52,214 bases of DNA from a virus: IMG/VR virus record IMGVR_UViG_3300036820_000646, positions 1 to 52,214 of that record, one strand, 5' to 3'. Every line of letters starts with the position of its first letter. The first letter of the stretch is position 1. Under the pieces are notes generated by a model that was not told the origin of the DNA, did no database searches, and saw only the letters and a program-made list of their open reading frames with translations. The translations under genes were made by a program, and so were the position numbers. Below are positions 2,910-47,891 of the stretch, piece by piece.

Positions 2910-3568
2910 CGCGTCACCGTCGAGTCGTACTCATCGTTGAAAGGCTGCTTAGTGATGTAGTAACCGACCGCGTCTTCACGAATTCCGTTGACGAGTACTT
3001 CATCGCCAAGCTCATCGATCACCGAGGACCACACGTGGTCCGACGGCTGTGACTTGACGAACGCGAGGTCAGTGCCGGACGTCTCGAACGTGCCGCCGTA
3101 ACGCTCATCAAGTGAGTCGTCGGAACCACGGACGGGGTGAGGAATCGGCTCGTAGAGGTCCGCGAAGTCATCCCGGTTCATCTGGCGGTTGAACGACTCC
3201 TCCTCGTCGTACGGAGCGATCTCGTCAACCACCTCCATGAAGGATTCAGCCAGCGGTTCAAACATGCGGCTGTCGCGATCGGCTTCGGCGAGGAACCTGT
3301 CGGCGACCGCGCGCCACTGCTCGGGCGTGAGATCGCGATCACCGTCGTAGTAGCCACGGTTCCTGAACCAATAGAGAGCCGGCTCGTCGTCTGGCAGGTT
3401 CGCTAGCTGCGCTCGAAGCTCTCCGACCGTTGGCCCCTCATAACCCTCGTACGGATTTACCAACGCGCGGCCGAGATCGACGGTGGCTTCCGGGTTCGTC
3501 GACGCGGCGAACTGCCCACCTGCGTCGGCGCCTTTGGGCACGCGACTTTGTCCATTGAGATCTCCCAT
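2906..3568 (-). CDS. Tagged protein 5, function unknown; first gene of tagged operon
   Basis: This 220-residue protein starts at ATG 3568 with AAGGAG four bases upstream. Residues 8-32 carry the tag (SRVPKG...GGQFAASTNPEATVDL). The body is strongly acidic, with many Asp/Glu and aromatic residues (LPDDEPALYWFRNRGYYDGDRDLTPEQ). It has a helical region at about 85-130 and no recognised motif. 'TVGELRAQLANLPDDEPALYWF' resembles short motifs in phage proteins, but I would not name it. It is the promoter-proximal gene, and box A lies directly ahead of its start codon. The next four genes follow with ATGA overlaps or a 12-bp gap. Confidence 0.8.
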   Translation of the reverse strand: MGDLNGQSRVPKGADAGGQFAASTNPEATVDLGRALVNPYEGYEGPTVGELRAQLANLPDDEPALYWFRNRGYYDGDRDLTPEQWRAVADRFLAEADRDSRMFEPLAESFMEVVDEIAPYDEEESFNRQMNRDDFADLYEPIPHPVRGSDDSLDERYGGTFETSGTDLAFVKSQPSDHVWSSVIDELGDEVLVNGIREDAVGYYITKQPFNDEYDSTVTR

Positions 3569-3576
3569 GTCTCCTT

Positions 3577-3604
3577 TGATGGGAGTTCTTCTCGCAATCG
3601 GCCA
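3577..3604 (-). promoter_or_regulatory. Box A copy 1, upstream of tagged operon
   Basis: The minus strand reads TGGCCG-N11-AACTCCCATC, ending in CATCA exactly 8 bases before the ATG of the first tagged gene. Two other copies with the identical 11-base spacer and identical 8-base distance to the start codon occur at 31565-31592 and 41359-41386. Promoter or operator is the natural reading. Confidence 0.75.
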
Positions 3605-10871: not shown

Positions 10872-10879
10872 CAAACGCC

Positions 10880-17249: not shown

Positions 17250-17259
17250 ACCATGCGGC
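17250..17259 (-). promoter_or_regulatory. Box C copy 2 (GCCGCATGGT)
   Basis: Identical 10-mer; its CATGG ends 8 bases before ATG 17242. It overlaps an alternative ATG at 17254, so its conservation could partly be coding. Confidence 0.4.
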
Positions 17260-26167: not shown

Positions 26168-26626
26168 TTAAACCCGTCGATTGAGCACCATCGCGTAGTA
26201 GCCGCGTCCCCCATTAACGAATCGCCCGGCAGCTACGAAGCCGCTCGAGTGGTGCAGCGCGAACGCAGCACTGTTCTCCATCTCACACGCGAGGACTGGC
26301 ACTCCTCCTTCTGCACGAATCGCGCTGATCGCTGCGCCAACCAGTGCTCCGCCGACGCCACGGCGTCGATAGTCGCTTGCGACGAAGATTCTCCCAAGAG
26401 AGACCGCGTCACTCAGATCGCTAAGCGCGTCCTTGATCGGTGACCACAACTTCCCCCAGCCGACGTGCCCAACGGCCAGGTGTTGATTGTCGATCGCCAA
26501 GAGACGCTGCTCGTAGGCTCGCTCCTCTTTCAATATCGACTCGATCTCCGGGTGCAATGTCATTCGACCGATACAGTCACTGGCGTCGACGATGTCGTGC
26601 GTCCAATACTTCACGGCCGTGGTCAT
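26168..26626 (-). CDS. GNAT family N-acetyltransferase
   Basis: This is 152 residues; its ATG overlaps the stop of the HerA-like gene (ATGA). The GNAT core is clear: LGRIFVASDYRRRGVGGALVGAAI with the acetyl-CoA pyrophosphate loop RRRGVGGAL (about 88-96), then a helix, then LACEMENSAAFALHHSSGFVAAGRF for motif B. The substrate is unknown. Coupling to the ATPase gene suggests the acceptor may be a protein of the element, or the gene may simply be cargo. Confidence 0.82.
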   Translation of the reverse strand: MTTAVKYWTHDIVDASDCIGRMTLHPEIESILKEERAYEQRLLAIDNQHLAVGHVGWGKLWSPIKDALSDLSDAVSLGRIFVASDYRRRGVGGALVGAAISAIRAEGGVPVLACEMENSAAFALHHSSGFVAAGRFVNGGRGYYAMVLNRRV

Positions 26627-29406
26627 CTCCCGGCCTCTCGGGCCAGCGTGTCCTCGGCCAAGATCTCGCCCCGACCACTGATGAGTTCGAGCGTGCGCAA
26701 CTTAGACAGTGCGTTGCCAAATGAGCTGCTCGTTTCGGAGTACCCACTCAACTTCGCGACTTCCTCGCGTGACAGCGACGCGGGCCACGCTTCGATCGCT
26801 ACGCCAAGAATGATGCGCTCGGCCTTGCCCAGCTTGGAATTCCAATGATCGAGCAATGCTCGCCCCGTCGGGAGTGGCTCGTATTGACCAGCGATAGCGT
26901 CAATCCCTTCGTTCGTCGCGCGAATCGGCTCGCCGCTCTTGTTGATGTATCCGAGCGTGCGAAGCCTCGAGAGCGCATTACCGAATGATGAGGACTTCGC
27001 TGAGTAGCCACTGAGGGTCGCCACCTGAGAACGGGTTCGGCCATCGGCGAACTGAGCGAGTACCGAGAGAATCGATCGCTCGGCTTTGCCCATCTGCGTG
27101 GGGAGATCGTTGTTCGACTTCCCCGCCCGCTCAGTCGTCGCAATCGACGGCGTCGGGGCCGAGATCACGGCGCGCTTAGGAGCCTTCGAGGACTTCGATT
27201 CGCCGTCAAGACGAGCATCCAGCACGTGTGAACCTACGACGCGCTTCACGTGACCGCTCAACAGCACGCTTGCCCCTTCGAGACCCTTCTGCACTTCGGC
27301 GAGTAGATCGTCGAGAAGACCCTCGGGAATGAAAGGAACCGGTACTTCGATTCGTTCAGTCACGATCTGTGGCTCTGACAGCACCGCAGGCTTGGCGGCC
27401 AGTTGCTTCTCGAGCTCAACGATGCGCCTCTGCAACGCCTTGGGGTCATTCGCCTCGGCTCGTTGGATGGCTTCTGCCATCTGGTCCTTGACGGCGCTGA
27501 GGTCCACTGCCGCGAACTTGCTTGGTTCGACCCTCTTCTGTCCAGGCTTCGGCGTTGCCGATGAGTTGAACGTGTGTCGCTCGCGGATCTGCACTCGATC
27601 AAAGAGTGGCGGCTCTCCACCGGGCTCCCAAATCCACGCTTCCCCGAGCCCAAGACTAGAGAGCGAGCCCATCATCGCCCTGCGCTGCTCGTCATCCGCG
27701 TCGGACTTCAAGTAATCCTCTATCGCACGCCGGTCATTAGGGCCGACCACTCGAAGCGCGATGAGGACGTCTATCTGTTCGAGCACGTTCTTGTTGACGA
27801 CGGCGGCACGCTGTGAGATGAGGGTCGTTCCGAGTCCACGGATGCCGCCGCGACGAACGATGGCCTCGAATGCTCCGAGCAGGCGTTGATCCGTCTCACG
27901 GGCCTCGCCCCGACCTCCGCCCACTCGTTGCGGACAGTTACCCGTGACGAAGACGCGACCGTTACGTCTTGCCACGAACGCGCCAGAGGGAAGCGTAATG
28001 TCCCAAACGAGACCTTTGTAGGTAGCCCGATATGGACGACGTACCCAATGCGCCGACGAAGTGCGACGACACACGTTCACCGTCCACTGTCCGTTCGACT
28101 TCTCAAAGCGCTTCGTGGTACTGATGCCGAGTCTGGTAGCGAGTTCCTGAAACTCATCTGCAAGTTGTTCGTTCTTACCTGGGTAAAAGCGAACCCACAC
28201 GCCCCTGTCAGAAGTTCCGTCGCCTTCCATGAGTCCCTGGTAAAGCGAGGAGAGTTGCTCCGGCGATCCCTCTTCGAGAATTCGTCTCGGTATTCGATGA
28301 AGATCCTCGCCGAGCCAGTCACCGATCGCGTCTGATAATTCGTGGCCGAAGTACCACGAATATGACTCCGCTCCCGTGATGGTCCCTTCGCCGCCGCCGG
28401 GCTTCGGACCGACCCGAGATGGTCGGAGATAGCGTCGAGAATCAGTAAATTGATCGAGTGCAGTCGACATCTCTTCGGTCATCGAAACTCCGCGCTTGAC
28501 CGTCGCAGTGGACTGCTGGAGCGCCAACACTTTCGACTTACGTCGGTCGTGCCAATGGCCGTCTGTGATGACCCAACCCATGATGCGCAAAACCTCATTA
28601 GAGAGGTCGGGAACCCCAATTCCGGGAGGTGCGCCACCCGCCGGGACCTCGATGGACGTCGGAACTTCTCCCGCGGGACAGAAAGACCAGTCGTATTTCT
28701 TGTAACGGCCGGCCGCCCTCTGCTGGCGGCGCAACACCACTCGGTGATCTGGTGTAACTAGGCAGTCGAGACTCTTCGTTTTGAGACCAATCATCTCGCC
28801 ATCGTGGTAACGGTGTAGGACGGCCCGGACGGGCTCATATCTATATTCCTCTGTCGCCATATCGAACCCAACAGCCACCGTTCCCTCGTGGACTTGGTCC
28901 CATGTCGCCCACCCATGATCGGTGAGGATTTCTGTGTCGGCGGTCATGCAGAACCGGTCGGCCTCGTCGACGAAGAGGTGCATCGGGAAATCCATGTTGG
29001 GTTGGGCCTTACGGCGAAACAATCGCTCGGCGAAGTCGGTAGCGAATTGGCGCTCGCCTGCTCCCGACTCGAAGAGCGAGAAGTCAATGACGTACCAACC
29101 CGGATAATCGAGAACAAGGTCAGCAATGAACTTGCCAGCTCCACGCTCTAACGGTAGGTCACCGTGTTGTCCGCCCAGAATGACGACGGGCAGTCCAGGT
29201 TTTTTGCCGTCGGCACTCGACCGCAGGCCCCACCAAGAACCTGTCGGGTCGAGAGCAACGAACGGGATCTTTGCCGCGACCATCTCCTCAGCGATGACCG
29301 AAGCTGAATATGTCTTCCCCTTTCTGCGTTGGGCGAGGATCGCCGCGGTCTTCGTGACGTAGTCATCCGTTAACGAAAGAGACTTGGAGATTTTTAGGTT
29401 CGTCAT
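26623..29406 (-). CDS. HerA-like ATPase interrupted by an intein
   Basis: This is 927 residues as encoded, about 589 after splicing. The HerA/DUF87-type core has a P-loop AAILAQRRKGKTYSASV (about 21-37), Walker B LFVDEADRF (144-152) split by the intein, and after it CPQRVGGGRGEARETDQRLLGAFEAIVRRGGIRGLGTTLISQRA with the sensor. A coiled coil (about 655-690) and two copies of a winged helix follow (GKAERSILSVLAQ...SGYSAKSSSFGNALSRLRTLGYI and GKAERIILGVAIE...SGYSETSSSFGNALSKLRTLELI), probably DNA binding. HerA-like ATPases pump or resect DNA. Here it could serve DNA transfer or packaging. Operon with 29441 upstream and the GNAT gene downstream. Confidence 0.88.
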   Translation of the reverse strand: MTNLKISKSLSLTDDYVTKTAAILAQRRKGKTYSASVIAEEMVAAKIPFVALDPTGSWWGLRSSADGKKPGLPVVILGGQHGDLPLERGAGKFIADLVLDYPGWYVIDFSLFESGAGERQFATDFAERLFRRKAQPNMDFPMHLFVDEADRFCMTADTEILTDHGWATWDQVHEGTVAVGFDMATEEYRYEPVRAVLHRYHDGEMIGLKTKSLDCLVTPDHRVVLRRQQRAAGRYKKYDWSFCPAGEVPTSIEVPAGGAPPGIGVPDLSNEVLRIMGWVITDGHWHDRRKSKVLALQQSTATVKRGVSMTEEMSTALDQFTDSRRYLRPSRVGPKPGGGEGTITGAESYSWYFGHELSDAIGDWLGEDLHRIPRRILEEGSPEQLSSLYQGLMEGDGTSDRGVWVRFYPGKNEQLADEFQELATRLGISTTKRFEKSNGQWTVNVCRRTSSAHWVRRPYRATYKGLVWDITLPSGAFVARRNGRVFVTGNCPQRVGGGRGEARETDQRLLGAFEAIVRRGGIRGLGTTLISQRAAVVNKNVLEQIDVLIALRVVGPNDRRAIEDYLKSDADDEQRRAMMGSLSSLGLGEAWIWEPGGEPPLFDRVQIRERHTFNSSATPKPGQKRVEPSKFAAVDLSAVKDQMAEAIQRAEANDPKALQRRIVELEKQLAAKPAVLSEPQIVTERIEVPVPFIPEGLLDDLLAEVQKGLEGASVLLSGHVKRVVGSHVLDARLDGESKSSKAPKRAVISAPTPSIATTERAGKSNNDLPTQMGKAERSILSVLAQFADGRTRSQVATLSGYSAKSSSFGNALSRLRTLGYINKSGEPIRATNEGIDAIAGQYEPLPTGRALLDHWNSKLGKAERIILGVAIEAWPASLSREEVAKLSGYSETSSSFGNALSKLRTLELISGRGEILAEDTLAREAGR
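27937..28950 (-). other. Intein 1 (canonical, 338 aa, LAGLIDADG type)
   Basis: Residues 153-490 of the HerA-like protein. It starts with Cys (CMTADTEILTDHGW, block A), has TPDH in block B, two dodecapeptide-type endonuclease motifs (MGWVITDGHW, LYQGLMEGDGT), block F YKGLVWDITLPSGAFVARR and block G VFVTGN followed by Cys+1. All splicing residues of a class 1 intein are present. The insertion point is directly after the Walker B motif DEADRF. Confidence 0.92.
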
Positions 29407-30488: not shown

Positions 30489-31556
30489 TCAGAGAAGGCC
30501 GAGACGAGTGCTGCGTCCGCGTAAGTAGTCACGGGCCCGCGCGACACTGGGCATGAATTCACGACGCGCGCTCACCTTGGCGGGGCATCGGTGCGATTCG
30601 GTCGCGTAAGCGCGCAGACACTTGCCGCACTCCTTTACCTCCACGCGTTCAGACTGCCCTCGAATCATCTGATTGAAGATTCGGCCCGGAGCCTCCGACT
30701 GCGCAACGCGCATGAATGCGGCGATGGGGACCTTAAACCCGTAGAGCCGCGATCCACCTTTGTTGGACTCCGTAGCCATGACCATCGTCCCCGTGACCTT
30801 TTCGTATGCCACCCCGGAGATCCACGAAGAGCTCACTGACTTGACCGGTACGCCGAGCTGGGCGGCGCGCTGACGCCGGCGCTCGAGGATGTCTCCGACC
30901 TCGGCTAACGCGCGACTGGGCCGACGCGACTCGAGGACGCACTGAACCGACTCGGCAACGTAGGCCGACTGATCGGGCGTGAAGCCGAGGCCCTGCGTGG
31001 CCCATGATCCATCTTCACCGCGCGCGACACGGACCCAGCCATCGAACTGCCCACCGGGAAACTGCGCCGAGACCGGCACGTCGAATGTGTCACCACTGTC
31101 TTTGCCGGGAACGTTCGCCAGGGAGAAGTCCTTGATCGCCGCCGCCGAGGGCATCCGAATGGCCACCTGGTCATTCGCGTAGGCCATGCGGTGTGTGCGC
31201 CGATGTCCAGCGATGGAGTTGCCACCCGTGTGCTGGGGTGTCCAGTCATCGGGCATCTGGGCGTAGCCCCCCTCGGGGTGGTTGTACTCACCGGCAGCCA
31301 TGTGTCGGTCCCACCACTCACGCCGATGCGCGGTTGAGTTGGGATCGACGAGGAGCGGTGCGGTCGCGGCGGGCACGTAACCCATCAGGCTCAGAGCCTC
31401 GACGCGCTCGCGGAGGAACTCTCGAGGGTCGACGGGGATAAGCGTCGGTGTGGGCTGGTCGTTGAAGAGGTCGACTTGCGCTTCTGGATTCACAGAGGCC
31501 GCGAACTGTCCCCCAGTCGTTTGACCCTTGGGTTGACGTGATCGATCCTTGTCCAT
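30489..31556 (-). CDS. Tagged protein 6 with KTSC-like domain and zinc motif
   Basis: This is 355 residues from ATG 31556; a longer in-frame start would read through box A and is rejected. The tag covers residues 5-30 (SRQPKG...GGQFAASVNPEAQVDL). Residues about 240-301 match the KTSC pattern: SSSWISGVAYEKVTGTMVMA, then SRLYGFKVPIAAFMRVAQS and GRIFNQMIRG. KTSC is a small domain named for lysyl-tRNA synthetase C-termini and common in phage and plasmid proteins. A CxxC...HxC motif (Cys310, 313, His322, Cys324) follows. The N-terminal half has 'EWWDRHMAAGEYNHPEGG'. This is the only tagged protein here with a recognisable body domain besides the sigma-like one. Confidence 0.8.
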   Translation of the reverse strand: MDKDRSRQPKGQTTGGQFAASVNPEAQVDLFNDQPTPTLIPVDPREFLRERVEALSLMGYVPAATAPLLVDPNSTAHRREWWDRHMAAGEYNHPEGGYAQMPDDWTPQHTGGNSIAGHRRTHRMAYANDQVAIRMPSAAAIKDFSLANVPGKDSGDTFDVPVSAQFPGGQFDGWVRVARGEDGSWATQGLGFTPDQSAYVAESVQCVLESRRPSRALAEVGDILERRRQRAAQLGVPVKSVSSSWISGVAYEKVTGTMVMATESNKGGSRLYGFKVPIAAFMRVAQSEAPGRIFNQMIRGQSERVEVKECGKCLRAYATESHRCPAKVSARREFMPSVARARDYLRGRSTRLGLL

Positions 31557-31564
31557 ACCCCCAT

Positions 31565-31592
31565 AGATGGGAGTTAAATCACGCAACGGCCA
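31565..31592 (-). promoter_or_regulatory. Box A copy 2
   Basis: TGGCCG-N11-AACTCCCATC followed by T. CATCT ends exactly 8 bases before ATG 31556. The sequence is conserved with copies 1 and 3 although the flanking and spacer bases differ. Confidence 0.75.
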
Positions 31593-34574: not shown

Positions 34575-35432
34575 TTACTCCTCGCTGCGGAATTTCTCTC
34601 GATTGAACCACGCAGAGCTGATCTCACTCAGCCGGTATTTCTTTTCGACATCCAGTATCGTCGTGACCTCGCCTGACGTCATCACGAATTCGCGCAAGGC
34701 AACCTCGGTTTGGACTTGGCTCGACATCTTGAATGTCTGGAGCCAGATCGCGTGTAGTCGCGTGACGTCGCGCAGATTCTCCAACTCAATCAAACCAATG
34801 CCGTAACGAATGCGATCGATGTATTGCTTGCGCGTCTTCCACTCTGCTTTCACCGCTGCGGATTCTTCGGGGTGCTTACGAATGAATCTCGACGTCAGCG
34901 TGGGCTGACTCCTTTCCCACTTCTCAAACTCGTCTTCGTAAATGGTCAGGTCGCGCCCGTACCTATCGGCGTTCTGGACGTTCGCCAACGCGGAGTCGTG
35001 CAGAACACAGCGGGCCCAGTGGTCCACGATCTGCTCCACATCGGAGTAAGAGGGTGGATACTGCCAGCTACCGCCAGCCATCTCGAGTCGACCTCCGAGT
35101 TGAATGGCCGGCTTCTGCTCGGGCGCAAAACGAGACGCGTCGGACTCAAAGAAATGGTCGTCGCTCAAGCTGGCACGAAACGACGCTTCCATACCTTCAA
35201 GAATCGCTGCCTCGTCGCTGGGCTTGTCTCTCTTAGCGGCCGCTGCAATGGCTTCCTCGCGTTTGCGGGCCAACTCCTCAGCGGCTTTGCTCCCATCTAA
35301 CTCAGCCAATTCTGCTCCCAGATCCACATTCGGTTCCGAGATTACTTCTTTCCTTTGAGCGAAACGACCTCCCGCCCTGGTGCCTCGCGGCTGACGCGGC
35401 ACGTTCGGTTTTTCAATAAATCTCTCTACCAT
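34575..35432 (-). CDS. Tagged protein 7 (divergent tag), function unknown
   Basis: This is 285 residues. ATG 35432 lies 7 bp inside the previous gene. The tag at about 11-39 is recognisable but altered: PRQPRGTRAGGRFAQRKE, then SEPNVDL, with GGQFA changed to GGRFA and NPEA lost. A charged helical segment (GAELAELDGSKAAEELARKREEA) and a mostly helical body follow, with no cysteine motif. It has no box A of its own because it sits at the end of the type IV secretion operon. The divergence suggests it is either older or under weaker constraint. Confidence 0.75.
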   Translation of the reverse strand: MVERFIEKPNVPRQPRGTRAGGRFAQRKEVISEPNVDLGAELAELDGSKAAEELARKREEAIAAAAKRDKPSDEAAILEGMEASFRASLSDDHFFESDASRFAPEQKPAIQLGGRLEMAGGSWQYPPSYSDVEQIVDHWARCVLHDSALANVQNADRYGRDLTIYEDEFEKWERSQPTLTSRFIRKHPEESAAVKAEWKTRKQYIDRIRYGIGLIELENLRDVTRLHAIWLQTFKMSSQVQTEVALREFVMTSGEVTTILDVEKKYRLSEISSAWFNREKFRSEE

Positions 35433-35971
35433 TCGCTCGTCCCCTGTGTCGGTGCTGGCGCTTCGTCCTCTTCACTGTCTTCACTCATCAGGTCTGTAAC
35501 GAGCGCCCAATTCCAGAGACTGACGAACCGACCTTCGTCCACATCGGTAATGACTCCAGCCTCGGCCAAGAATCGGAAAAAGATCGCCGTCCCAATGAGA
35601 TCGTCTCCGACGAGATCGCGCGTCTCAAACTCAACCACCCCCCGAGGGTCATATTGACCCCAGACGGCATCCACGAGTTCGTCGCGGCTCCTGCCGAGGT
35701 ATTCACTCCAGAGATCTCTCGACGACTGTGCGGTCTGGTCTCGGACCCACCCTCGAAACGCCTCCAACACGCGTCGAGCAGATTGATTTCCCGGATCATC
35801 CATGTAGTTGGCGATTCGTTGGTCGTCCGATCCGATGGCGATCAGCAGTGCGATCGTCGGAAGAGCAAGGACGTTGTCCACGAGGACAAGATCGATAGGA
35901 AAGCCCGCCGGCGAAATGAGACCGGTGAGGTCCTCAAATTCATCGTTGAGATCTTTGGTTTCTGTGCTCAC
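35426..35971 (-). CDS. Acidic unknown protein (181 aa)
   Basis: GTG 35971 overlaps the stop of the VirB6-like gene (TAGTG). Strongly acidic, with a hydrophobic segment (FPIDLVLVDNVLALPTIALLIAIGSDD, about 24-50) and a helical region (SARRVLEAFRGWVRDQT). The C-terminus is Asp/Glu/Pro-rich. A cytoplasmic accessory of the transfer channel is plausible from context only. No family is recognised. Confidence 0.68.
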   Translation of the reverse strand: MSTETKDLNDEFEDLTGLISPAGFPIDLVLVDNVLALPTIALLIAIGSDDQRIANYMDDPGNQSARRVLEAFRGWVRDQTAQSSRDLWSEYLGRSRDELVDAVWGQYDPRGVVEFETRDLVGDDLIGTAIFFRFLAEAGVITDVDEGRFVSLWNWALVTDLMSEDSEEDEAPAPTQGTSEW

Positions 35972-38892
35972 TATTTGTCTCCAATCGGCAATGGCTCACC
36001 GCGCTTGAACGCTTCAATGCGACGCTGTTGAATGTCGAGGCGGCGGGCAGCTTCATCGTGTGCGTCTCGCTCGGCTTGGCTCAACTCGAAACGATGCCGT
36101 GCAGCGCGCTCAGCGTCTTCTTGTTTTGCCGCGGCCTCATTTGCTCGCATCGACTCCGCGTCGGCTGTGGCCTTCTTATTTCGCGCCTCTTCGTCTGCTT
36201 TGAAGGCACGGTAGTCCTGAAGATTCTTTTGGGCTCGCAGCGGCGCGTCTTTCAGGTAGTTACGCAGTTTGTGGGCTCCGTAGACCAGTCCAGCTCCCGC
36301 CGCGACCGGAGCACCAAATCCCAAGAGCCCGGCGGCCCCGAGGCCGGCCGTACCGTACTTGAGCACTTTCGGAGCCTTCTTGACGGTCGCTTTGGCTCCC
36401 GCACCCGCTGCGGCTGCCGTAAGGACACTCCCCTTCAAGCGGTGAGTTTGACCTTCTCCATCTCTCTGGTTGAACCGCTTCCTCGAGCGCGCCAAGCTCT
36501 CCTTGATGCGAGCCCTACGAGTCACTTCAGGCTCGCCCCGTTCGGCCTTCGCCGTGCGAGGGTGCAGCACGCTGTTACTCATCTGCTCGATCCGCTTCGT
36601 GCGCTCAGCGATCCGTTCGGCTCGAGCATGCTGATTGGCCTGGTGCTGTTCGTCATCGCGGAGTTTCGGTCGACGCGCCTTGGCGAACATAGAGCCGGCC
36701 CCGGTTGCTGCTCCCTCAACAACGGGACGAGCCCCATCGGTACTGCCGGGCGACTTCGGGTCAACCGGTGTTGCCGTCGCTGCGCCCGTCTGCGCGGGTG
36801 CAGCGCCAGTCTTCGTCTGACTCGCACCCATCGAACCATTGGTTTGTGACGGACCAGACTTCGTCTTCTGTCCGCTGATCCGTCCGCGAGCGGCGCCGAC
36901 AGCCTGACCGCCGCGACGCTTCATGTGATCGAGCACATCGACCCCTACGGCAGCGGAGCCGAAGCCTCCCATCGCACCAGCGAACGCTGCCGCCCCCTTC
37001 ATCGAGAACGGGCTGGGGGCCTTAAGAACCTTGGTGATGAATAGACGAACAAGATAGAGCGCGGCGACAGGAGAGATCGTGATGAAGATCTGCGAGAAGA
37101 GTGATCCTGCCCCGGTCGCTTGTGTCCCCATCGCGGCGAGGACTGCCGTGATGATGGCTACAAAACTCAGAATCAGTCCCGCACACGTCGAAAACAAGAT
37201 GAGCCCGAAAAGGTGCTTCACGTACGCACTGAAGCGACCTTCCATCGTCGGCATCAATGCGAATATGAGCATCAACGGGAGCAAGATCATCAAGATGATG
37301 AGTGACAGTTTCGCGATGATAAGGGCGAGGGCAAGAACACCAAAGACAACCAGGATCACCGTTGAGCTCAAGAGGAAGAAGAACGCACTGGCCTCCGCTC
37401 CAGAGTTCTGAGTGCCGTGCAGGTTGCCGATGAAGTTCGCTATGCCGGTTCCGGCAGCGGATGAGTTCGTCGAAGTGGCGATCGCTGACGCAGAGTCGCC
37501 CCAGTTGAAGACTCCCAAGTCTGGGTTGAGGATCTGTCCGGGCCACGGTGCAGCGCTGGGGCTCGCGAAAGGACCGCTCGCATCGCCGTACTGGCCGCCG
37601 CTCGCAGGAGCGTTGGCTGACCAAAACGTCTGACAGTCGGCCCCATTGACCGTCGATGTCCCGGACGTCGTTGGTGAGGGCACTGTCGTGAATGCAGCGG
37701 TGGTCAATTTTCCCGTGGAGATGTCCCATTCCGAAGGTGTAAATCCGCTGCCACCAGATCCATTCGCTGGGCTTTGGCACGCGGCCCAGGCGACCATAGA
37801 TTCGTCTTCTTGGTCGTTGGTGAGTGCACCGTTCCAAGCGAGCGCGGACGCTTGAGTGACGCCGAAGGAGCTCAAATTTGAATCACCTGACAGCGAGCCC
37901 GACGCCTTGGCGACGGCCAACTGAGAAGCGGGCTGGATGCCGGCATTGTCCTCGAGTAGGTGGCAGTACATCAAGGGCGCGTAGTTGTTCGATGCGCCGA
38001 ACTGCTCGTCTTCATAGGTAGGAATCGCCGCTTGCTCCCAGAGGGAGTTCAAGGAAGTCGGCACTACGTATCCGTAACTACCGGTGGCTGTGTACGCCTT
38101 CTGGTACTCGTCAACCAACTCTTGGCTGTACCAGTAGCAACTGAGCGGATCGCTCTTCGCAATGGTCTCCTGGGTTGAGCCACCGATCGTGGCATTGGCG
38201 ACATTGGAAATCGCATTCGCCGGGCCGCTCGCAACATCGGAGATCGCGTTGTATCCGGTTTGAATGATCCACGCAGGGCTTAACGGAACGTCGTCGGTCG
38301 CGGTGGATGCCATTGCCGCGCCAACGATCGTGAACAGGATCGCCACCACCACCATGAACTTGATGATCTGACGGAAGAAGTTCCCACGGCCGCGGAGGGC
38401 ACGCCACGCCAGCGTGACAAGGGCCAAGACTGCCAAGACACCAAGCAGTGGGGACGTCGTAATTCCGGTCCCGAGCTTTCCCGCGAACGTGTTTGCCATC
38501 TCGCCCACGGTGTTGGCGAAACAGAACTGACTGGCTCCTTCGGTCGCGGAGGCGGCGAGCTGCCATTCCGATGCACCAATCGAGGTCATGCCGCCCACGA
38601 AGACTGACCTGTCGATGGAACTTGGCGCATTCGAGATCCCGCTCAGAAATCCGCCGGGCAAGCGTTCGTGCTCATCGCCGAGCGAACCCGACCAGCGGTT
38701 GATGGGCAGGTCGTTGTCCGCCGCCGTGGCGCTCGACGCTGTCGTGCCACAGATGAGTCCGGTCTGAGTCCCTGTGGTGTTGGTTGGCGTTGTGCTCGCA
38801 GCCCCTGCCGGTCCAGATGACAGAAGTAGCGCGAAGAGTGGAACAACTATGACGCCGAGTGCGGCAATGCGACGGTGTCGAACGTTTCTCAT
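35971..38892 (-). CDS. VirB6/TrbL-like polytopic conjugation protein
   Basis: This is 973 residues. ATG 38892 has AGGG upstream. A signal sequence (about 10-32) is followed by an extracellular stretch with cysteines, then transmembrane helices at about 148-166 and 176-196, a large outer loop, and a second cluster of four or five helices at about 500-640 (FFFLLSSTVILVVFGVLALALIIAK, SLIILMILLPLMLIFALMP). A charged cytoplasmic tail of about 330 residues follows, rich in Arg/Glu/Ala. This layout fits the large VirB6-like subunits of Gram-positive type IV secretion. It lies in the operon with the pilin-like and PrgI-like genes. Confidence 0.82.
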   Translation of the reverse strand: MRNVRHRRIAALGVIVVPLFALLLSSGPAGAASTTPTNTTGTQTGLICGTTASSATAADNDLPINRWSGSLGDEHERLPGGFLSGISNAPSSIDRSVFVGGMTSIGASEWQLAASATEGASQFCFANTVGEMANTFAGKLGTGITTSPLLGVLAVLALVTLAWRALRGRGNFFRQIIKFMVVVAILFTIVGAAMASTATDDVPLSPAWIIQTGYNAISDVASGPANAISNVANATIGGSTQETIAKSDPLSCYWYSQELVDEYQKAYTATGSYGYVVPTSLNSLWEQAAIPTYEDEQFGASNNYAPLMYCHLLEDNAGIQPASQLAVAKASGSLSGDSNLSSFGVTQASALAWNGALTNDQEDESMVAWAACQSPANGSGGSGFTPSEWDISTGKLTTAAFTTVPSPTTSGTSTVNGADCQTFWSANAPASGGQYGDASGPFASPSAAPWPGQILNPDLGVFNWGDSASAIATSTNSSAAGTGIANFIGNLHGTQNSGAEASAFFFLLSSTVILVVFGVLALALIIAKLSLIILMILLPLMLIFALMPTMEGRFSAYVKHLFGLILFSTCAGLILSFVAIITAVLAAMGTQATGAGSLFSQIFITISPVAALYLVRLFITKVLKAPSPFSMKGAAAFAGAMGGFGSAAVGVDVLDHMKRRGGQAVGAARGRISGQKTKSGPSQTNGSMGASQTKTGAAPAQTGAATATPVDPKSPGSTDGARPVVEGAATGAGSMFAKARRPKLRDDEQHQANQHARAERIAERTKRIEQMSNSVLHPRTAKAERGEPEVTRRARIKESLARSRKRFNQRDGEGQTHRLKGSVLTAAAAGAGAKATVKKAPKVLKYGTAGLGAAGLLGFGAPVAAGAGLVYGAHKLRNYLKDAPLRAQKNLQDYRAFKADEEARNKKATADAESMRANEAAAKQEDAERAARHRFELSQAERDAHDEAARRLDIQQRRIEAFKRGEPLPIGDK

Positions 38893-38900
38893 TGCCCTAA

Positions 38901-38910
38901 ACCATGCGGC
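38901..38910 (-). promoter_or_regulatory. Box C copy 4 (GCCGCATGGT)
   Basis: In the 33-bp gap ahead of the VirB6-like gene. CATGG ends 9 bases before ATG 38892. Confidence 0.5.
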
Positions 38911-38925
38911 GATTCCGGCGTTTGC

Positions 38926-39102
38926 CTAAATCATCACGTGAAAGATCGAAAGCACCCCGCCAACGACGAGAGCCGCTACGACAACGATGAGTACCAAGGC
39001 TCCGCGATCGGCGACCCATTCTTCGATTTCGGCTCGCTCTGATTGGTATCCGTCGCGCCGGCGACCGACGAATCGGTCAAGCCGGGAGTTCTCGTCGGTC
39101 AT
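38926..39102 (-). CDS. 58-residue single-span membrane protein
   Basis: ATG 39102 overlaps the previous stop (TAATG). The product has a basic/charged N-terminal 35 residues (TDENSRLDRFVGRRRDGYQS) and one transmembrane helix (GALVLIVVVAALVVGGVLSIF). It lies between the pilin-like and VirB6-like genes, where small type IV secretion accessories often occur. The packing leaves little doubt it is a gene. Confidence 0.72.
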   Translation of the reverse strand: MTDENSRLDRFVGRRRDGYQSERAEIEEWVADRGALVLIVVVAALVVGGVLSIFHVMI

Positions 39103-39455
39103 TAGTGAACGTAGACAAGAACGTGCAATGCGCCGATCGCCGTCGAGCTACCGCTCGTGCTGTGCAGCAGGCTCCAGAACGCGTTCGCCGCGAAGTCGAA
39201 CAAGGTGAGGATCGACGGCAAAACGATGTCGGGACCCGCGAGGATGCACCCAACGAGGGCCGTCCAGATCAGCTTCGTGTGACTACCGCCACCGCGACGA
39301 CGCTCCCAGAAGTACATGACGAGCGCGCCGATGACGAGCATCGTACCGATCACGCCCAAGAACGTCACGAAACTGCCGAGCGGGCCAGAAAGGCTCGACC
39401 AGGCCGTGCTCCACGATCCTGCAAGGTTGATGCTGGTTGCGTCTGCGAACATCAT
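39102..39455 (-). CDS. Pilin-like / VirB2-like small membrane protein
   Basis: This is 117 residues from ATG ATG at 39455 with GGAAG upstream. Two transmembrane helices: about 25-49 (GSFVTFLGVIGTMLVIGALVMYFW) and about 62-92 (IWTALVGCILAGPDIVLPSILTLFDFAANAFW), separated by a short positively charged loop ERRRGGGS. This is the topology of VirB2/TrbC-type pilins, although no signal peptidase site is obvious. It sits immediately after the PrgI-like gene, as expected for VirB2/VirB3 order. Confidence 0.65.
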   Translation of the reverse strand: MMFADATSINLAGSWSTAWSSLSGPLGSFVTFLGVIGTMLVIGALVMYFWERRRGGGSHTKLIWTALVGCILAGPDIVLPSILTLFDFAANAFWSLLHSTSGSSTAIGALHVLVYVH

Positions 39456-39913
39456 CGACTTCCTTTCTTTGCTGCGTTGCTTTTCACCATGCGGCGAGTT
39501 CTTGTGTCAGTCGACAAGATGGCCAAATCCCGGACACGACCGGCCCCACTAGGCACGGAACTAGCGACGACGTAACCAAACTGGTGTCGGAGGGGCTCAA
39601 TGGGACGTGAGCAGAGGAGAAAGGTCCCTGAGACCGAGCGCCGCACGTCAACGAAGCGTTGGTAGCGACGAAGTTGCAGCCCTGAACGACTGCGTGACTC
39701 GATGAACCAAAAGGCCAGCGCCTGAATGACGAGAATGCTCATCAATGCGTACGTGCCAAGGAACGTCCACAGAACTACGGTTGCGACGATGCCGGGGATC
39801 AGCGCGAAGCCGGCAATGGTGAGGCCCCGGACCGGTAGGTCGAAGCCTTGAATGACGACGCGGCGATGTTGATTGACCGACCTCGTGAGCGGAGTCAGCG
39901 TGTAAACGTTCAT
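39452..39913 (-). CDS. PrgI/VirB3-like conjugation protein
   Basis: This is 153 residues. The ATG overlaps the previous stop (ATGA). Two adjacent transmembrane helices at about 28-70 (LTIAGFALIPGIVATVVLWTFLG, YALMSILVIQALAFWFI) are preceded by a short N-terminus and followed by a basic cytoplasmic tail ending with RMVKSNAAKKGSR. That is the usual architecture of PrgI/VirB3-like proteins, which bind VirB4. The next gene overlaps by 4 bp. Confidence 0.7.
   Translation of the reverse strand: MNVYTLTPLTRSVNQHRRVVIQGFDLPVRGLTIAGFALIPGIVATVVLWTFLGTYALMSILVIQALAFWFIESRSRSGLQLRRYQRFVDVRRSVSGTFLLCSRPIEPLRHQFGYVVASSVPSGAGRVRDLAILSTDTRTRRMVKSNAAKKGSR
39486..39495 (-). promoter_or_regulatory. Box C copy 5 (GCCGCATGGT)
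   Basis: Inside the last codons of the PrgI-like gene, 31 bp upstream of the pilin-like ATG. The coding constraint makes this copy less certain as a control site. Confidence 0.35.
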
Positions 39914-40341
39914 TCACTCTCCGCCATTGAAAAGCCACCAACCATGACCAGCGAGTGCCGACGGAGTCGGTACATGGTGTCGGGCTTTACGCCCGTCTCC
40001 TCGTTCACGTCGGCGCTCACTACGTAGCGGATTCCGTTCTCATCCTCGCCCGCGATCACCAACGTGCCGCCAACGCCGGTGCGCGCGACGCCTTCAACGC
40101 CGACGATGGAGATCCCGCCGTCACCAGTGATAGCGATTCCTCGATCGCCCGCGACGGCATGACCTCGGTTTCCCGCGCGGGCGTAGCCGAGTTCGTCGGA
40201 GATGGAGGTGCCTTCATCGCCAGAGATGGACCGTCCGCGCACGCCCGTCACCGAGTGGCGGCCGTCGCTCGACACGGCGAGATGTGTTTGGGGGTGAATA
40301 TTTGAAATCAAGTCGTTGTTCTCTTCCGGATTAGACGGCAC
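39910..40341 (-). CDS. Octapeptide-repeat (beta-solenoid-like) protein
   Basis: About 143 residues from GTG 40341 (TTG 40311 is the alternative); the earlier in-frame ATG lies inside the previous gene and is rejected. Residues about 33-97 are eight tandem octapeptides of the form G-x-x-G-x-[AS]-x-[ATS]: GVRGRSIS, GDEGTSIS, (DELGYARA), GNRGHAVA, GDRGIAIT, GDGGISIV, GVEGVART, GVGGTLVI. Regular 8-residue Gly repeats like these form narrow beta-helices in other proteins. A small domain follows (IRYVVSADVNEETGVKPDTMYRL). It is the second gene of the secretion operon; a rod-like or surface role is inferred from shape alone. Confidence 0.72.
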   Translation of the reverse strand: MPSNPEENNDLISNIHPQTHLAVSSDGRHSVTGVRGRSISGDEGTSISDELGYARAGNRGHAVAGDRGIAITGDGGISIVGVEGVARTGVGGTLVIAGEDENGIRYVVSADVNEETGVKPDTMYRLRRHSLVMVGGFSMAESE

Positions 40342-41350
40342 GGCCCTCCACGCGACTAATTGCGACCTTCCACAGATCGGCGGCGTAATCGGGAAAACGA
40401 ATAAGGGTCTCGCAGGTAACGCGACGTTGCGCGTCGTCAAGATCACCGAACGGCGCGAAGAGAGATGAGGTTGTCTCGCCGGTCTTCATGTATTGCTCGG
40501 CGCAGGCCAACGCTCCCCCAGCGTCCATGACGTCAGCTCGAGCTCGAATGGCGGCCCGCTTGCCGATAGGCACATCGAGAGTAAGAGGAGCACCAGAGTG
40601 CTCGGCAATTGCATCCCACGCCAGTGCGCGGGCCTTGACCTGCTGACCGTCAGACTTCAGTTGAGAAGCGCGGTCGCCGAATGATCCTTCCTCAAAGTCG
40701 CTTATGTCAATTTCCGCTGAGCTAGTAGCGGCTTGGAAGGATGCAACCTCAACGTGGTCGATAGGGCGACTACCACCCTCCTTCGCCCTCGTGACGCTCC
40801 AGTCCAACCCGTGCGTCGTAGGTGCTGGGATGTGGAAGTTCTCACTGGGGCGTGAATGGGCAGGGATGGACAAGCGGATCTCGCTGGAGAGGTCCTCGAG
40901 TTCTTTCGCAGACAACGCGCGGGCCAGGCGGGCTTCACGTGAAGCCTTCTCCTGGTCGAACAATCGCATGGCGGCGAAGCGTTTGTGGTCTTTGCCTTCG
41001 AGCGCACGGATGATAGAGCGCTTAGCAATGAGCGAGGTAGGAATGGGGCCGGCCTCGGGCGGACGCGTCGCGTCGGCAACAGCGGCGTTCGCGGCGACAA
41101 GATATGCCAGCACCGCGTCTTGAACTAAGTCGTCTCCGTCCATGTAGCCGTTCAATTGCTTGTTCCCAAGTCCAAAGCGACGGACATAACTGCCGGCGAT
41201 ACGTCGTGTCTCCTCGGCGCCTTCGACGAGGTCGACGGTCGCTTCGGGGTTCTGAGACGGAGCAAACTGCCCACCAACTGGCACTCCGCGCGGCTGACGT
41301 GCTCGCGATCCGGGAGTTGTGGACGTGTGCTGGCGGCTGGAGGACTCCAT
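40331..41350 (-). CDS. Tagged protein 8 with sigma-70 region 2-like segment
   Basis: This is 339 residues from ATG 41350. The tag is at about 17-42 (ARQPRG...GGQFAPSQNPEATVDL). Immediately after it comes RRIAGSYVRRFGLGNKQLNGYMDGDDLVQDAVLAYLVAAN. 'DGDDLVQDAVLAYL' (71-84) strongly resembles the core-binding motif of sigma-70 region 2 (DDLVQEA.LAL). Downstream 'IPTSLIAKRSIIRALEG' sits where the -10 recognition helix would be, and 'ARALSAKELEDLSSEIR' resembles the start of region 3. A clear region 4 is not seen. It is the first gene of the type IV secretion operon and box A precedes it. A divergent sigma or anti-sigma-like regulator is my best reading. Confidence 0.68.
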   Translation of the reverse strand: MESSSRQHTSTTPGSRARQPRGVPVGGQFAPSQNPEATVDLVEGAEETRRIAGSYVRRFGLGNKQLNGYMDGDDLVQDAVLAYLVAANAAVADATRPPEAGPIPTSLIAKRSIIRALEGKDHKRFAAMRLFDQEKASREARLARALSAKELEDLSSEIRLSIPAHSRPSENFHIPAPTTHGLDWSVTRAKEGGSRPIDHVEVASFQAATSSAEIDISDFEEGSFGDRASQLKSDGQQVKARALAWDAIAEHSGAPLTLDVPIGKRAAIRARADVMDAGGALACAEQYMKTGETTSSLFAPFGDLDDAQRRVTCETLIRFPDYAADLWKVAISRVEGRAV

Positions 41351-41358
41351 GCACGCTT

Positions 41359-41386
41359 AGATGGGAGTTCACAGAGTGAACGGCCA
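41359..41386 (-). promoter_or_regulatory. Box A copy 3, upstream of the sigma-like gene
   Basis: TGGCCG-N11-AACTCCCATC followed by T. CATCT ends exactly 8 bases before ATG 41350. It falls in the 47-bp gap after the SNF2 helicase gene, so the secretion operon has its own control region. Confidence 0.75.
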
Positions 41387-43296: not shown

Positions 43297-46200
43297 CTAC
43301 GACTCGGCGGGAACATTGACGAGAAACTTGGTGAAATCAATGCCCTTCGCGCGCTCCTCGTGTGGTTCTGATTCCGCGGCACGCTCGTGCGCCCAACGGT
43401 TGTCGAGCCACGTCGTGGCCTCTGTGGGATCAGAGATCTTCCGAGCAAAGCGGCGCAGCGATTCCATCAATGTCTCTCGCGTCGGTGCGGGATAGGCGAT
43501 CTTCGAGGACTTGATGAGCCGTGGATCGAGCACTGCACACATACCCGAGTCATTCACCGAACGAATGAGGCGACCCGCGGCCTGTTCGAGCAAGAGGCTT
43601 GCGTCCGCGACATAAACCAACCGGTCCGCAGCCCAACGGTCGAGCTCGAGGCGCTCCTGGACCCAAGTCACCCGCGCATCATCAACGGGATTCCCTGCCG
43701 ACCTCGGGATTCGGTCAATGACCACAAGTGAGCAGGTGGCTCCCGGAGCATCCACACCCGTCATCAGACTTCGCGTGCCGACGAGTACTGAACCCACGTC
43801 GGCGCGCCACATGGTGACTATCTGCTTGGTCGTGCCCGCGTCCCACTGCGAATGGACGGTGATCTCCGGATGTGCGAGACGTAATGCATCCGCGTAGCGC
43901 TTACCAGCCGCTGTTGTTGCCGAGAGCACCAGTGCGGACCCGCCATTGGCGGACACTAGGTCTACGATCATCGTCGTCGCCCAGTCCACATGACGAGACG
44001 TATCAAAGCGACGCCGTCCTTTATCGGTGACGCACACTTTGTCGAGATCATCCCCCACCAACTTCGGGATGAATAGCGCGGAGTTCGCGAATGCCACCTC
44101 GAACGGGCTGGCGTACTTCTTCAGCCGGGCACTAACACCGAGTTCGATCACCATTGGCTGAGGGAGAGTCGCGGAAACGACAACAACTGAGAGCGGCATC
44201 ACCTCACCGGCCTCATCCTTCATGGCGCCATACAGGTTGGCTCGCAACAGCGGGGCCACATCGACGGGAGAAAGCCGTAACGCTGCGCCCGTGATTCCTT
44301 CGAGTCCGGTGATCGGGCGAAACGAACGACCCTCGAGTTCGATCCAGCGGGCGACATTGTGAGCGTCTCTGGCCATCGAGGAGATCGCTTCGCGAAGGAC
44401 CACAGCCTTTGACTGAGCCCGACGACGAGAACGAATCTCTCCGATGACGACCGACGCTTCCGGTTTAGGAATGAGACTCCGCGCTCCTTCGAGCCACACC
44501 AAGAGGTCTTCAGAGAGCTGACTTTCCAGAGCCTCGTCTTCTGGCTTAAGCGTCAACTCCTCTTTGCCGTTCAATCTCCTTGAGAGGTATGTATCGAGGC
44601 GTCGCATAACGTCGAGGCCGCTGGTGCGTAAGAACCGGGTCTTGCCAGGATTTCCTGAGTGAAGGTGTTCGATCGAACGCAGGAGATCAAAGAGGCGACT
44701 CGCATTGACCGATGTGCTGCCTTGTGAGCGCACCGTGTTCGCCAGGCCGTGTGATTCGTCGATTACTAGGTTGGCGAAAGTACCGAGTCTCTTGTTGCCG
44801 ATGACCACGGCGGCGCCCATCGCCGTCTGAATTGCGAGCAATGCATGGTTGGTTACAACGATGTCAGAGGTCGCCGCGGTCTCGCGTGCGATCGAGGGAA
44901 GACACACTGCGCCAAAGGGACAGTGGTCTGCTCCCGGACATTCATCGGTAGTGATCGAGATCTTGTTCCATTGCTCGTCAGTTGTGCCGATTGGGAAGTC
45001 AGATCGGTCTCCCGACTCGCCAAAGAGGTGAGTGTTGATGGCGGCAACCACTACGTCTCCCCCGGTCAAGTACGCGTCCTTCTGGATCAGTGTCTTGACT
45101 TCGTCGAGCGCTTCAAGTGGGTCGCCGCTTGGCACCTGCTGTGGCCGAATGAGTAGCTCGTTCGCTTGGTGATACGTCTCGGCGGCGCAGACGTAGTTGG
45201 ACCAGCCTTTGAGCAGTGAGAACGTTGGCCGAACTCCCTTGACGCGTTCGATGGCTTCGACCACGACCGGAAGGTCCTTCTCTACGAGTTGACTTTGCAG
45301 GTTGAGTGACTCAGTCGCGATGACCGTCCGAGCCTTGCGGTCGGCCGCCATGAGGGCCGCGGGTATCGCATAGGCGAGCGAGTTGTGTGTCGGGATCATC
45401 GCTTTCCCCGCGAGATAGAGATGATTCGGCGACGAGACTTGGATGCAACGAACGGGACGGGTCTCTACTGGTCGGATATCGGTGACGTACCGGAAACTGG
45501 TGTTTGCTCCTGACGAAGGCTTTCCCTTCATTTGCATTGCCAGTTTCCGTTCGAAGCGGAACATTGGTTCGTTGGTGGAAAACGACATCCTCCAGCGAGT
45601 TCCGACCACGCGCATATTGCGGACGCCTTCCACCATTTCTGTTATTGTCGCTGGGCCTGTCCGGATGGTTGCTCGGATACCGAGCGATGAAATCAGCTCA
45701 TAAACGTCTTTCGCCAGCTTCTCGTTGCAAAGGTCGATGGCACACTTGCGACCGTTGGCGGTGCCGTCAGTGTCCATGATTCCTTGCAACAGCGCACGTC
45801 GCTGCTCGATGGAGGCTCGCAGGTAAAGGTTCGGAATGTACTTGTCGCCGAGAACACCCAATCGCCGCAGATGGAGAGCGAGCGGCTCGTTCCATCGGTT
45901 CACTCTGGAGCGGTCTTCCTTGGAGGGCCTCGTCTTCACGCACGTAACGCACGTTCGGTTTGCGCGCTCTCCCATGTTGGGAACGAAGTCATCGTGGCCG
46001 TAGGGGCAGAGATCTGGCCGCGGTTGGCGAAATGAAAGCATCCGCGAATCGTTCTTACGGACCGCAACGTCGATGTGATAACCAGTTCCACTTACGTTGT
46101 TCATCAACTCAGCGAAGTCCTCGGCACCCGACGTGACACTGCCGGCGCCAGATGAGCCATCACCGAGCCAGACGCCGAAGAGATACGGATCGATAGGGAG

Positions 46201-47010
46201 ATCCGCGATCTTGGTGTCGAGAGGTCCAGCGACGCGAATCGCGTGATTAAGAGCGTCTTTAACCGTGAGCGACGAACGCATTTGCGCAGTCGTCATCACC
46301 TCAAAGCCGGCTGGAGGCTTTTGCAGTAGAGAGCATCGACTTTCCGTCGCCGTGATGACCTCGTCTAAAGCGAGACGGACATCGAACAGCTCCCCATTTC
46401 CGAGTACACGGGGGTCGAGAGCCCTTCGCGCACGCAGTAGTGCATCTTGGACCTCGGGGTAGCGGTCTATGACCTCTTGGCGAGAAAACAGATAGCCGGA
46501 GTCCTCAATGCTCTTGCGAATCCTTTTCAGTTCGTTGACCTGATCTAGCCGACCGATTGAGTTGTATCGGTCACCTGCCTCAACCCTTCGGCGTTCAGCT
46601 TGCTTGAAACGAAGCGCACGCGTTGCAGTCGCCCACTGGTGGTCAGCATCCGCGACGATCGTGTTGCCGTCCGAGAAGGCGACTTCATAGCAAACTCGGT
46701 CGGTCATCACGTTGCTGATCCACGTCACCGTTGTCTCTGCGCCCGTCTCGTCGAAAACGACATCTCCAACCTTGATTTCGCCCATCGTCGTCCACCCTGA
46801 CGGCGTGGCGATCGGAGTGCTGAGGTCTAATGCCTTACCAACTCCTGTTGGAGCTTCGCCGGCTGCTTGGCCGCCAGACATGAACGCCTCGAGAACGTCG
46901 TGAGCCAGTTTCACCTGACCTGGACGTGGTTCGGCTTCGTCGACACCGGTCGTCAGGACCACGGCGCGCGCCAGAGCATTCTCAAGAGATTCGTGAAGCA
47001 GTTCTTCCAC
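43297..47010 (-). CDS. DinG/XPD-type helicase interrupted by a class 3 intein
   Basis: This is 1237 residues as encoded, about 753 after splicing, from GTG 47010 with AGGAAAAG upstream. The helicase has a Q motif (RPGQVKLAHDVLEAF), Walker A GEAPTGVGK/SLAYAIP split by the intein, a Cys set typical of the Fe-S domain (NYVCAAE, then TDECPGADHCPFGAVCLP), Walker B LVIDESHGLAN and motif VI EQAAGRLIRS. DinG/XPD enzymes are 5'-3' helicases that remove R-loops or unwind damaged DNA. Box B lies just upstream. It is operonic with the SNF2 helicase below; both probably serve replication or transfer of the element. Confidence 0.92.
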   Translation of the reverse strand: MEELLHESLENALARAVVLTTGVDEAEPRPGQVKLAHDVLEAFMSGGQAAGEAPTGVGKALDLSTPIATPSGWTTMGEIKVGDVVFDETGAETTVTWISNVMTDRVCYEVAFSDGNTIVADADHQWATATRALRFKQAERRRVEAGDRYNSIGRLDQVNELKRIRKSIEDSGYLFSRQEVIDRYPEVQDALLRARRALDPRVLGNGELFDVRLALDEVITATESRCSLLQKPPAGFEVMTTAQMRSSLTVKDALNHAIRVAGPLDTKIADLPIDPYLFGVWLGDGSSGAGSVTSGAEDFAELMNNVSGTGYHIDVAVRKNDSRMLSFRQPRPDLCPYGHDDFVPNMGERANRTCVTCVKTRPSKEDRSRVNRWNEPLALHLRRLGVLGDKYIPNLYLRASIEQRRALLQGIMDTDGTANGRKCAIDLCNEKLAKDVYELISSLGIRATIRTGPATITEMVEGVRNMRVVGTRWRMSFSTNEPMFRFERKLAMQMKGKPSSGANTSFRYVTDIRPVETRPVRCIQVSSPNHLYLAGKAMIPTHNSLAYAIPAALMAADRKARTVIATESLNLQSQLVEKDLPVVVEAIERVKGVRPTFSLLKGWSNYVCAAETYHQANELLIRPQQVPSGDPLEALDEVKTLIQKDAYLTGGDVVVAAINTHLFGESGDRSDFPIGTTDEQWNKISITTDECPGADHCPFGAVCLPSIARETAATSDIVVTNHALLAIQTAMGAAVVIGNKRLGTFANLVIDESHGLANTVRSQGSTSVNASRLFDLLRSIEHLHSGNPGKTRFLRTSGLDVMRRLDTYLSRRLNGKEELTLKPEDEALESQLSEDLLVWLEGARSLIPKPEASVVIGEIRSRRRAQSKAVVLREAISSMARDAHNVARWIELEGRSFRPITGLEGITGAALRLSPVDVAPLLRANLYGAMKDEAGEVMPLSVVVVSATLPQPMVIELGVSARLKKYASPFEVAFANSALFIPKLVGDDLDKVCVTDKGRRRFDTSRHVDWATTMIVDLVSANGGSALVLSATTAAGKRYADALRLAHPEITVHSQWDAGTTKQIVTMWRADVGSVLVGTRSLMTGVDAPGATCSLVVIDRIPRSAGNPVDDARVTWVQERLELDRWAADRLVYVADASLLLEQAAGRLIRSVNDSGMCAVLDPRLIKSSKIAYPAPTRETLMESLRRFARKISDPTEATTWLDNRWAHERAAESEPHEERAKGIDFTKFLVNVPAES
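45382..46833 (-). other. Intein 2 (class 3, 484 aa, with zinc-finger-containing endonuclease)
   Basis: Residues 60-543 of the DinG-like protein. The first residue is Ala (ALDLSTPIATPSGWTT), so the usual C1/S1 nucleophile is absent. The class 3 'WCT' set is present: Trp126 in block B (ADADHQWAT), Cys522 in block F (VRCIQVSSPNHLYLAG) and Thr541 in block G (MIPTHN), with Asn543 and Ser+1. LAGLIDADG-like motifs are LFGVWLGDGSS and LLQGIMDTDGT. Between them lies a CPYGH...CVTC zinc-finger-like insert (335-357). It is inserted in the P-loop, between GK and S. Confidence 0.9.
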
Positions 47011-47881: not shown

Positions 47882-47891
47882 ACCATGCGGC
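47882..47891 (-). promoter_or_regulatory. Box C copy 6 (GCCGCATGGT)
   Basis: Preceded by ACCCATTC. CATGG ends 8 bases before ATG 47874. It overlaps the alternative ATG 47886. Confidence 0.45.

Follow-up and report, generated by a model that had tools for sequence, protein, structure and literature searches.

The minus-strand gene at 40331-41350 of the window (the whole stretch of DNA analysed here, all 52,214 bases of one IMG/VR record) encodes a 339 aa protein, P0001, which sequence comparisons, with good support, identify as a divergent sigma-family protein of actinobacterial plasmid-like elements. On balance, we think it likely that this element-encoded factor, a member of the sigma-70 family without region 4, reads element-specific and probably leaderless promoters, driving its own gene and the genes of proteins that share its N-terminal tag. 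The data point to large actinobacterial elements with a private transcription programme, involving a previously unrecognised sigma clade, several dozen fixed-distance promoter-like boxes per plasmid, and dozens of proteins sharing an N-terminal tag, the sequence of which changes together with that of the box. The prediction is testable in a cultured strain, Pseudarthrobacter chlorophenolicus A6, which carries the plasmid pACHL01 with the family member ACHL_RS22220. Judged from titles and abstracts, searches of the open-access literature turned up no paper describing such a box, tag and sigma system.

The sigma-like protein

Translation from the ATG at 41350 and membership of the protein family described below define the gene, the parts of which are as follows, all on the minus strand:

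40331-41350, minus strand: sigma-like tagged protein P0001, 339 aa
41228-41299, minus strand: N-terminal tag RQPRGVPVGGQFAPSQNPEATVDL, aa 18-41, common to seven other ORFs of the window
40976-41218, minus strand: sigma region 2-like part, aa 45-125, including DGDDLVQDAVLAYL (aa 71-84 in the translation)
40751-40981, minus strand: sigma region 3-like part, aa 124-200, corresponding to the family motifs GRxLTxxE and SLDxPxG
40334-40705, minus strand: family-specific helical C-terminal domain, aa 216-339, with the conserved LFAPFGDL, and with no detectable region 4

Queried by itself in Pfam, NCBIfam, PHROGs and PDB, P0001 had no matches and showed no significant similarity to a sigma factor; its individual region 2 signal is weak and its copies of the region 3 motifs are degenerate, and the sigma assignment of this protein therefore rests on the family to which it belongs. 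Membership of that family is secure, as an HMM built without P0001 scored it at 136.8 bits (E=5.8e-41). AlphaFold2 models, made from three sequences only, were of low confidence (pLDDT 46 and 41), and Foldseek returned no matches for them at E<=0.001; the sigma reading draws on neither, whether in favour or against.

The family has at least 18 members, and its profile was built from 18. When the profile was compared with all PDB sequences using hmmsearch, 11 of the 13 matches, including all of the top seven, were sigma factors, the best being the SigR-type structure 1h3l (E=1.5e-4). Ten of the 18 members matched Pfam Sigma70_r2 (best E=2.2e-4), as many matched the NCBIfam sigma70-ECF model, and one matched Sigma70_r3 (0.094). 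Profile-profile alignment with hhalign gave a score of 52.9 for region 2 against ECF sigma factors, compared to a mean of 11.0 and a maximum of 16.0 in 200 column shuffles, and 15.3 for the reversed profile. Region 3 by itself scored 25.7 against group 1-3 sigma factors (P 1.8e-4), a level reached by none of 200 shuffles (mean 9.3, maximum 18.9) nor by the reversed profile (8.2), and the alignment paired GRxLTxxE and SLDxPxG with their group 1-3 counterparts. These results were little changed when P0001 was omitted. For region 4, the family scored 10.8, matched by 45 of 200 shuffles, and against ECF sigma factors it scored 16.3, with the reversed profile at 16.1.

At the level of the family, regions 2 and 3 of sigma-70 are both recognisable and region 4 is not detected. 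A sequence-only reading of this DNA had proposed that P0001 resembles sigma region 2 and that no region 4 is apparent. Profile methods bear out the former for the family and the shuffles agree with the latter, while the HHpred-type comparison with regions 2 and 3 which it had recommended, performed here with hhalign, placed both regions above all shuffles and so adds a region 3 to the original claim.

Distribution of the family

Using tblastn, relatives 26-29% identical to P0001, with 85-97% coverage, were found on plasmids 370-440 kb in size from Arthrobacter, Pseudarthrobacter and Paenarthrobacter, and 550-610 kb Curtobacterium plasmids matched it over part of its length. In those of the examined plasmid records that carry annotation, the gene product is labelled 'hypothetical protein', and PLSDB types the plasmid relatives as non-mobilizable. 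Further, more distant members from genome searches come mostly from the same order as the central Arthrobacter genome (Micrococcales); in a phylum-wide sample (n=397), only that central genome matched at E<=1e-15. Where the ORF was readable, the loci behind non-tag matches in ordinary genomes were SigR/SigH-type sigma factors. No relatives were found in IMG/VR, which was searched by protein, alignment and DNA pattern, or among phages. The copy in Arthrobacter sp. ISL-65 (L017, 1454-2491) has an apparent C-terminal frameshift, possibly an assembly error.

Gene content of the window

Downstream of the sigma-like gene lies a run of genes on the same strand:

39102-40446, minus strand: three small ORFs (39910-40446, 39452-39913 and 39102-39455), arranged as in the relatives
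35971-38892, minus strand: TrbL/VirB6-like protein (Pfam TrbL, NCBIfam CD3337/EF1877)
34575-35432, minus strand: tagged protein closing the TrbL run; Arthrobacter-group relatives likewise have a tagged ORF after the TrbL-sized gene

Both ORFs 39452-39913 and 39102-39455 have hydrophobic stretches. The TrbL/VirB6-like protein matched Pfam TrbL at E=2.3e-5 (24.7 bits, just under the cut-off of 25.9) and NCBIfam CD3337/EF1877 at 1.9e-10, below the cut-off of that family; the VirB4-like and TrbL-like matches of the window are both weak and under curated cut-offs, and are read alongside synteny with the relatives. On the Arthrobacter-group plasmids the sigma-like gene is likewise followed by a small protein, a pair of small ORFs, a TrbL-sized ORF and a tagged ORF, in this order; on the Curtobacterium plasmids, the genes downstream of the family member differ. 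As to the earlier suggestion that the sigma-like gene leads a secretion operon, the gene does head a run that includes this weakly matched TrbL/VirB6-like protein.

The window also encodes DnaE, an SSB-like ORF, a ParA-like protein and, with intein-like matches, two ATPases; it has the look of a section of a plasmid-like element. The dnaE gene (7167-10874) encodes the element's own DNA polymerase III alpha subunit, also present in the Arthrobacter-group relatives. A helicase ORF at 43297-47010 contains an intein-like homing-endonuclease/LAGLIDADG insertion, a HerA-like ATPase at 26623-29406 has a match to an intein N-terminal splicing domain, and the ORF at 33754-34311 matches a phage small-terminase family (phrog_4102, 7e-13), although among the proteins scanned there was no recognisable capsid or portal gene.

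An RpoD-like sigma factor with the canonical regions 2, 3 and 4 is encoded by each of four plasmids of the Arthrobacter group (W01-W04, of which W04 is pACHL01), and in pACHL01 it is fused to helicase and HA domains. This ORF of about 1000 aa (L155 1-2763, approximately 377-380 kb in pACHL01; also L154 and L032) joins an SF2/XPB-like helicase, the complete RpoD-like sigma and a helicase-associated domain; in L156, only the HA domain is joined to the sigma (Pfam was run on L155 and L156).

Promoter-like boxes in the window

Two types of box were found 8-9 nt upstream of start codons in the window:

41360-41386, minus strand: box A upstream of the sigma-like gene (TGGCCG-N11-AACTCCCATC; gap to the ATG, 9 nt)
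31566-31592, minus strand: box A before the tagged gene 30489-31556
3578-3604, minus strand: box A upstream of a run of five tagged genes, 3568-383
38902-38910, minus strand: box B, GCCGCATGG, with a gap of 9 nt to the start codon of the TrbL-like gene; a second promoter-like class

The full pattern TGGCCG-N11-AACTCCCATC-N9-ATG occurs three times without a mismatch (minus strand, 41348-41386, 31554-31592 and 3566-3604), its final ATG being in each case the start codon of a tagged gene, and was absent from 100 dinucleotide shuffles even when three mismatches were allowed. That box A precedes the sigma-like gene, as had been noted from the sequence, is therefore borne out by an exact bipartite copy ending at its start codon. 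A k-mer scan of the window alone did not raise the boxes above control triplets, hence box A of the window rests on this exact bipartite form and on the relatives. An IMG/VR match to box A inside an apparently ordinary phage gene was taken as chance. Further copies of box B, at 47883-47891 and 17251-17259, lie 8 nt before an ATG.

Boxes in pACHL01 and other genomes

The sequence GCCG[CT]ACAC occurs 122 times in pACHL01, against 15 expected from base composition. An ATG follows at exactly 9 nt in 61 cases and at any other distance in six or fewer, with the exception of distance 0, where the overlap is made by the box's own CACATG. These boxes fall into two classes. Counted from the ATG, class U has a -35-like element, CGGKGAS, at -38 to -32, followed by YCCGYACACAT at -18 to -8; this arrangement, CGGKGAS-N13-YCCGYACACAT-N7-ATG, is found mostly at untagged genes, with about 75 untagged starts in pACHL01. 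Class T, GCCGYACACA, precedes tagged genes, including the sigma-like gene, and largely lacks the CGGKGA element; it goes with tagged genes in this plasmid (29:22 against 1:54, Fisher p=5e-11). Given that the -35-like element lies at the usual -35 position if the start codon is +1, leaderless messages are suggested, with transcription from box promoters probably beginning on the ATG or right next to it.

Among 398 sampled Micrococcaceae genomes, the box followed by ATG was abundant only in three, G001 (57), G322 (46) and G327 (51), which are the three with a close family member; all others had nine or fewer, and a control pattern occurred six times or fewer, although this co-occurrence of box and close relative is equally a co-occurrence with the whole plasmid. 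A fourth genome, G143, has a distant family member and its own box variant. In most of the homologues examined, a box precedes the sigma-like gene, and the protein bears the type of tag that is seen on other proteins of its element.

Tagged proteins

In addition to P0001 and the tagged ORF of the TrbL run, six tagged proteins are encoded by the window:

383-1087, minus strand: tagged protein
1100-1570, minus strand: tagged protein
1567-1989, minus strand: tagged protein
1986-2909, minus strand: tagged protein
2906-3568, minus strand: tagged protein, from the gene that opens the five-gene run after box A
30489-31556, minus strand: tagged protein behind box A

On plasmids W01-W04 (L114-L153), there are 33-49 profile matches per 400-440 kb plasmid, nearly all to the N-terminal tag and mostly on proteins of unknown function; one is on an NAD-dependent DNA ligase and one on a Fic protein. 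Some 48 tagged ORFs are found on pACHL01. A domain scan of 54 tagged proteins (47 from pACHL01 and seven from the window) recognised known domains in few of them, these being NAD-dependent DNA ligase, Fic, DUF2958, DUF7007, LPD29 and ParB-like nuclease. Five contigs of another genome (G037; C4, C95, C102, C118 and C135) encode many tagged proteins and have eight boxes; a full-length family member was not found in G037, reflecting either a fragmented assembly or a divergent factor.

Iyer et al. 2017 (PMC5512222) proposed that conjugative elements deliver proteins with such domains along with their DNA. It is a speculation, and an unlikely one in our estimation, that the tag is a delivery signal with which the tagged proteins, including the sigma-like factor, pass through the secretion system with the DNA, and that the factor would then switch on leaderless element-specific promoters at once. 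If it were true, the element would reach its recipient with its own transcription factor.

Co-variation of box, tag and element

Across the relatives the sequence of the box varies, and its distance to the start codon is constant at 8-10 nt. The sigma-like gene's own box is CCGGACACT in G143, CCGCACATCT in G654, CCGTCAAC in G651, CCCTTAT in G579 (three starts), CACATAG in G522 (four) and AACTCCCATC in the window (three). At the same gap, the 7-mer of the gene's own promoter is found before 17 of 411 starts in G143, 9 of 1724 in G651, 10 of 949 in G654, 77 of 4722 in pACHL01 and 3 of 415 in the window; these element-specific variants are rare on other elements. The tag changes as well. All ten genes behind CCGTCAAC in G651, the sigma-like gene among them, carry a different tag, around HPRxxDGKFATKPVxEAxGGLSAL (a regular expression counts nine of the ten), and the tag of G143 is NRTNDGKYTTKSHSEADVDL. 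A second class of box, like box B of the window, lies before untagged genes (none of 15 tagged in G651, and none of seven in G579). A general rule that the box is found only before tagged genes was rejected, as untagged genes of both pACHL01 and G143 have one too. This co-variation across elements lends strong support to the proposed link of the sigma-like gene with the tag and with box A.

Which factor reads the boxes

In the model we favour, the sigma-like factor would direct host RNA polymerase to element-specific promoters, each an extended -10-like box fixed 8-10 nt before the start codon, from which transcription would begin at or very near the ATG to give leaderless messages. It would drive its own gene, at the head of the T4SS-type run, and the element's other tagged-protein genes, with region 4 either absent or replaced by the family-specific helical domain. 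Binding of P0001 to core RNA polymerase and recognition of the box by the sigma-like protein are presumed steps of this model, and if the family recognises its own box, the sigma-like gene would be autoregulated. The class T promoters, in pACHL01 little more than a strong -10-like box, fit a factor that lacks region 4; unlike these, box A of the window has the conserved upstream TGGCCG. The earlier idea of an element-encoded sigma-like factor with its own regulon thus stands as regards the homology, the shared boxes and their co-variation, while promoter reading by P0001 is a step that we infer.

The boxes might instead be read by another element-encoded factor, the RpoD-like sigma on the Arthrobacter plasmids and some activator as yet unknown elsewhere, with the sigma-like protein a tagged target or modulator. 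We consider this rather doubtful. Plasmids W01-W04 do encode a canonical region 2-3-4 sigma that could read the boxes, many of their boxes also precede untagged genes, and the clear CGGKGAS of the class U promoters in pACHL01 would suit a sigma bearing region 4. However, the class T promoters, including that of the sigma-like gene itself, largely lack CGGKGA, and no RpoD-like sigma was found in the sequence examined of G651, G143, G422, G579, G522 and the window (some of them fragments), most of which have box sets and all of which have a family member.

The sigma fold could also be a mimic, in which regions 2 and 3 bind core polymerase or an anti-sigma factor without promoter recognition, as an anti-sigma-type regulator or subunit partner would. 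Non-detection of region 4 and the degenerate region 3 motifs of P0001 would be in keeping with this, but the co-divergence of box and element, and the presence of a box before the gene itself, are more simply explained by a reader of promoters, and we regard a mimic as improbable. That tag and box adjoin and co-vary might, with no dedicated regulation, be the by-product of a shuffled 5' cassette of promoter plus tag; this seems very improbable, given that many untagged genes in G143 and pACHL01 have a box, and that genes internal to the runs have kept the tag without one. From these internal genes, the tag appears to be kept at the protein level.

Comparison with known systems

Sigma-2-type factors without the usual region 4 include phage T4 gp55, which reads -10-dominated promoters, and the split sigma RsoA/SigO; the likeness of the present family to these is one of description only.

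The ECF (group 4) sigma factors of the SigR/SigH type have the region 2 closest to that of the family. They consist of regions 2 and 4 only, being without region 3, whereas the family has a region 3-like part and no detectable region 4. In the group 1-3 sigma-70 factors (SigA, SigB/F), region 2, GRxxTxxE and SLDxPxG follow one another as in the family, which differs from them in having no detected region 4, a C-terminal helical LFAPFG domain and an N-terminal tag.

A word search of the main text of PMC5512222, on polyvalent proteins, found neither 'sigma factor' nor 'Arthrobacter'. Some tagged proteins of pACHL01 have a Fic, LPD29 or ParB-like nuclease domain and so are of the type of cargo for which PMC5512222 proposes delivery along with DNA; however, the domains there are combined in one large multidomain protein, whereas here they are found on single tagged proteins.
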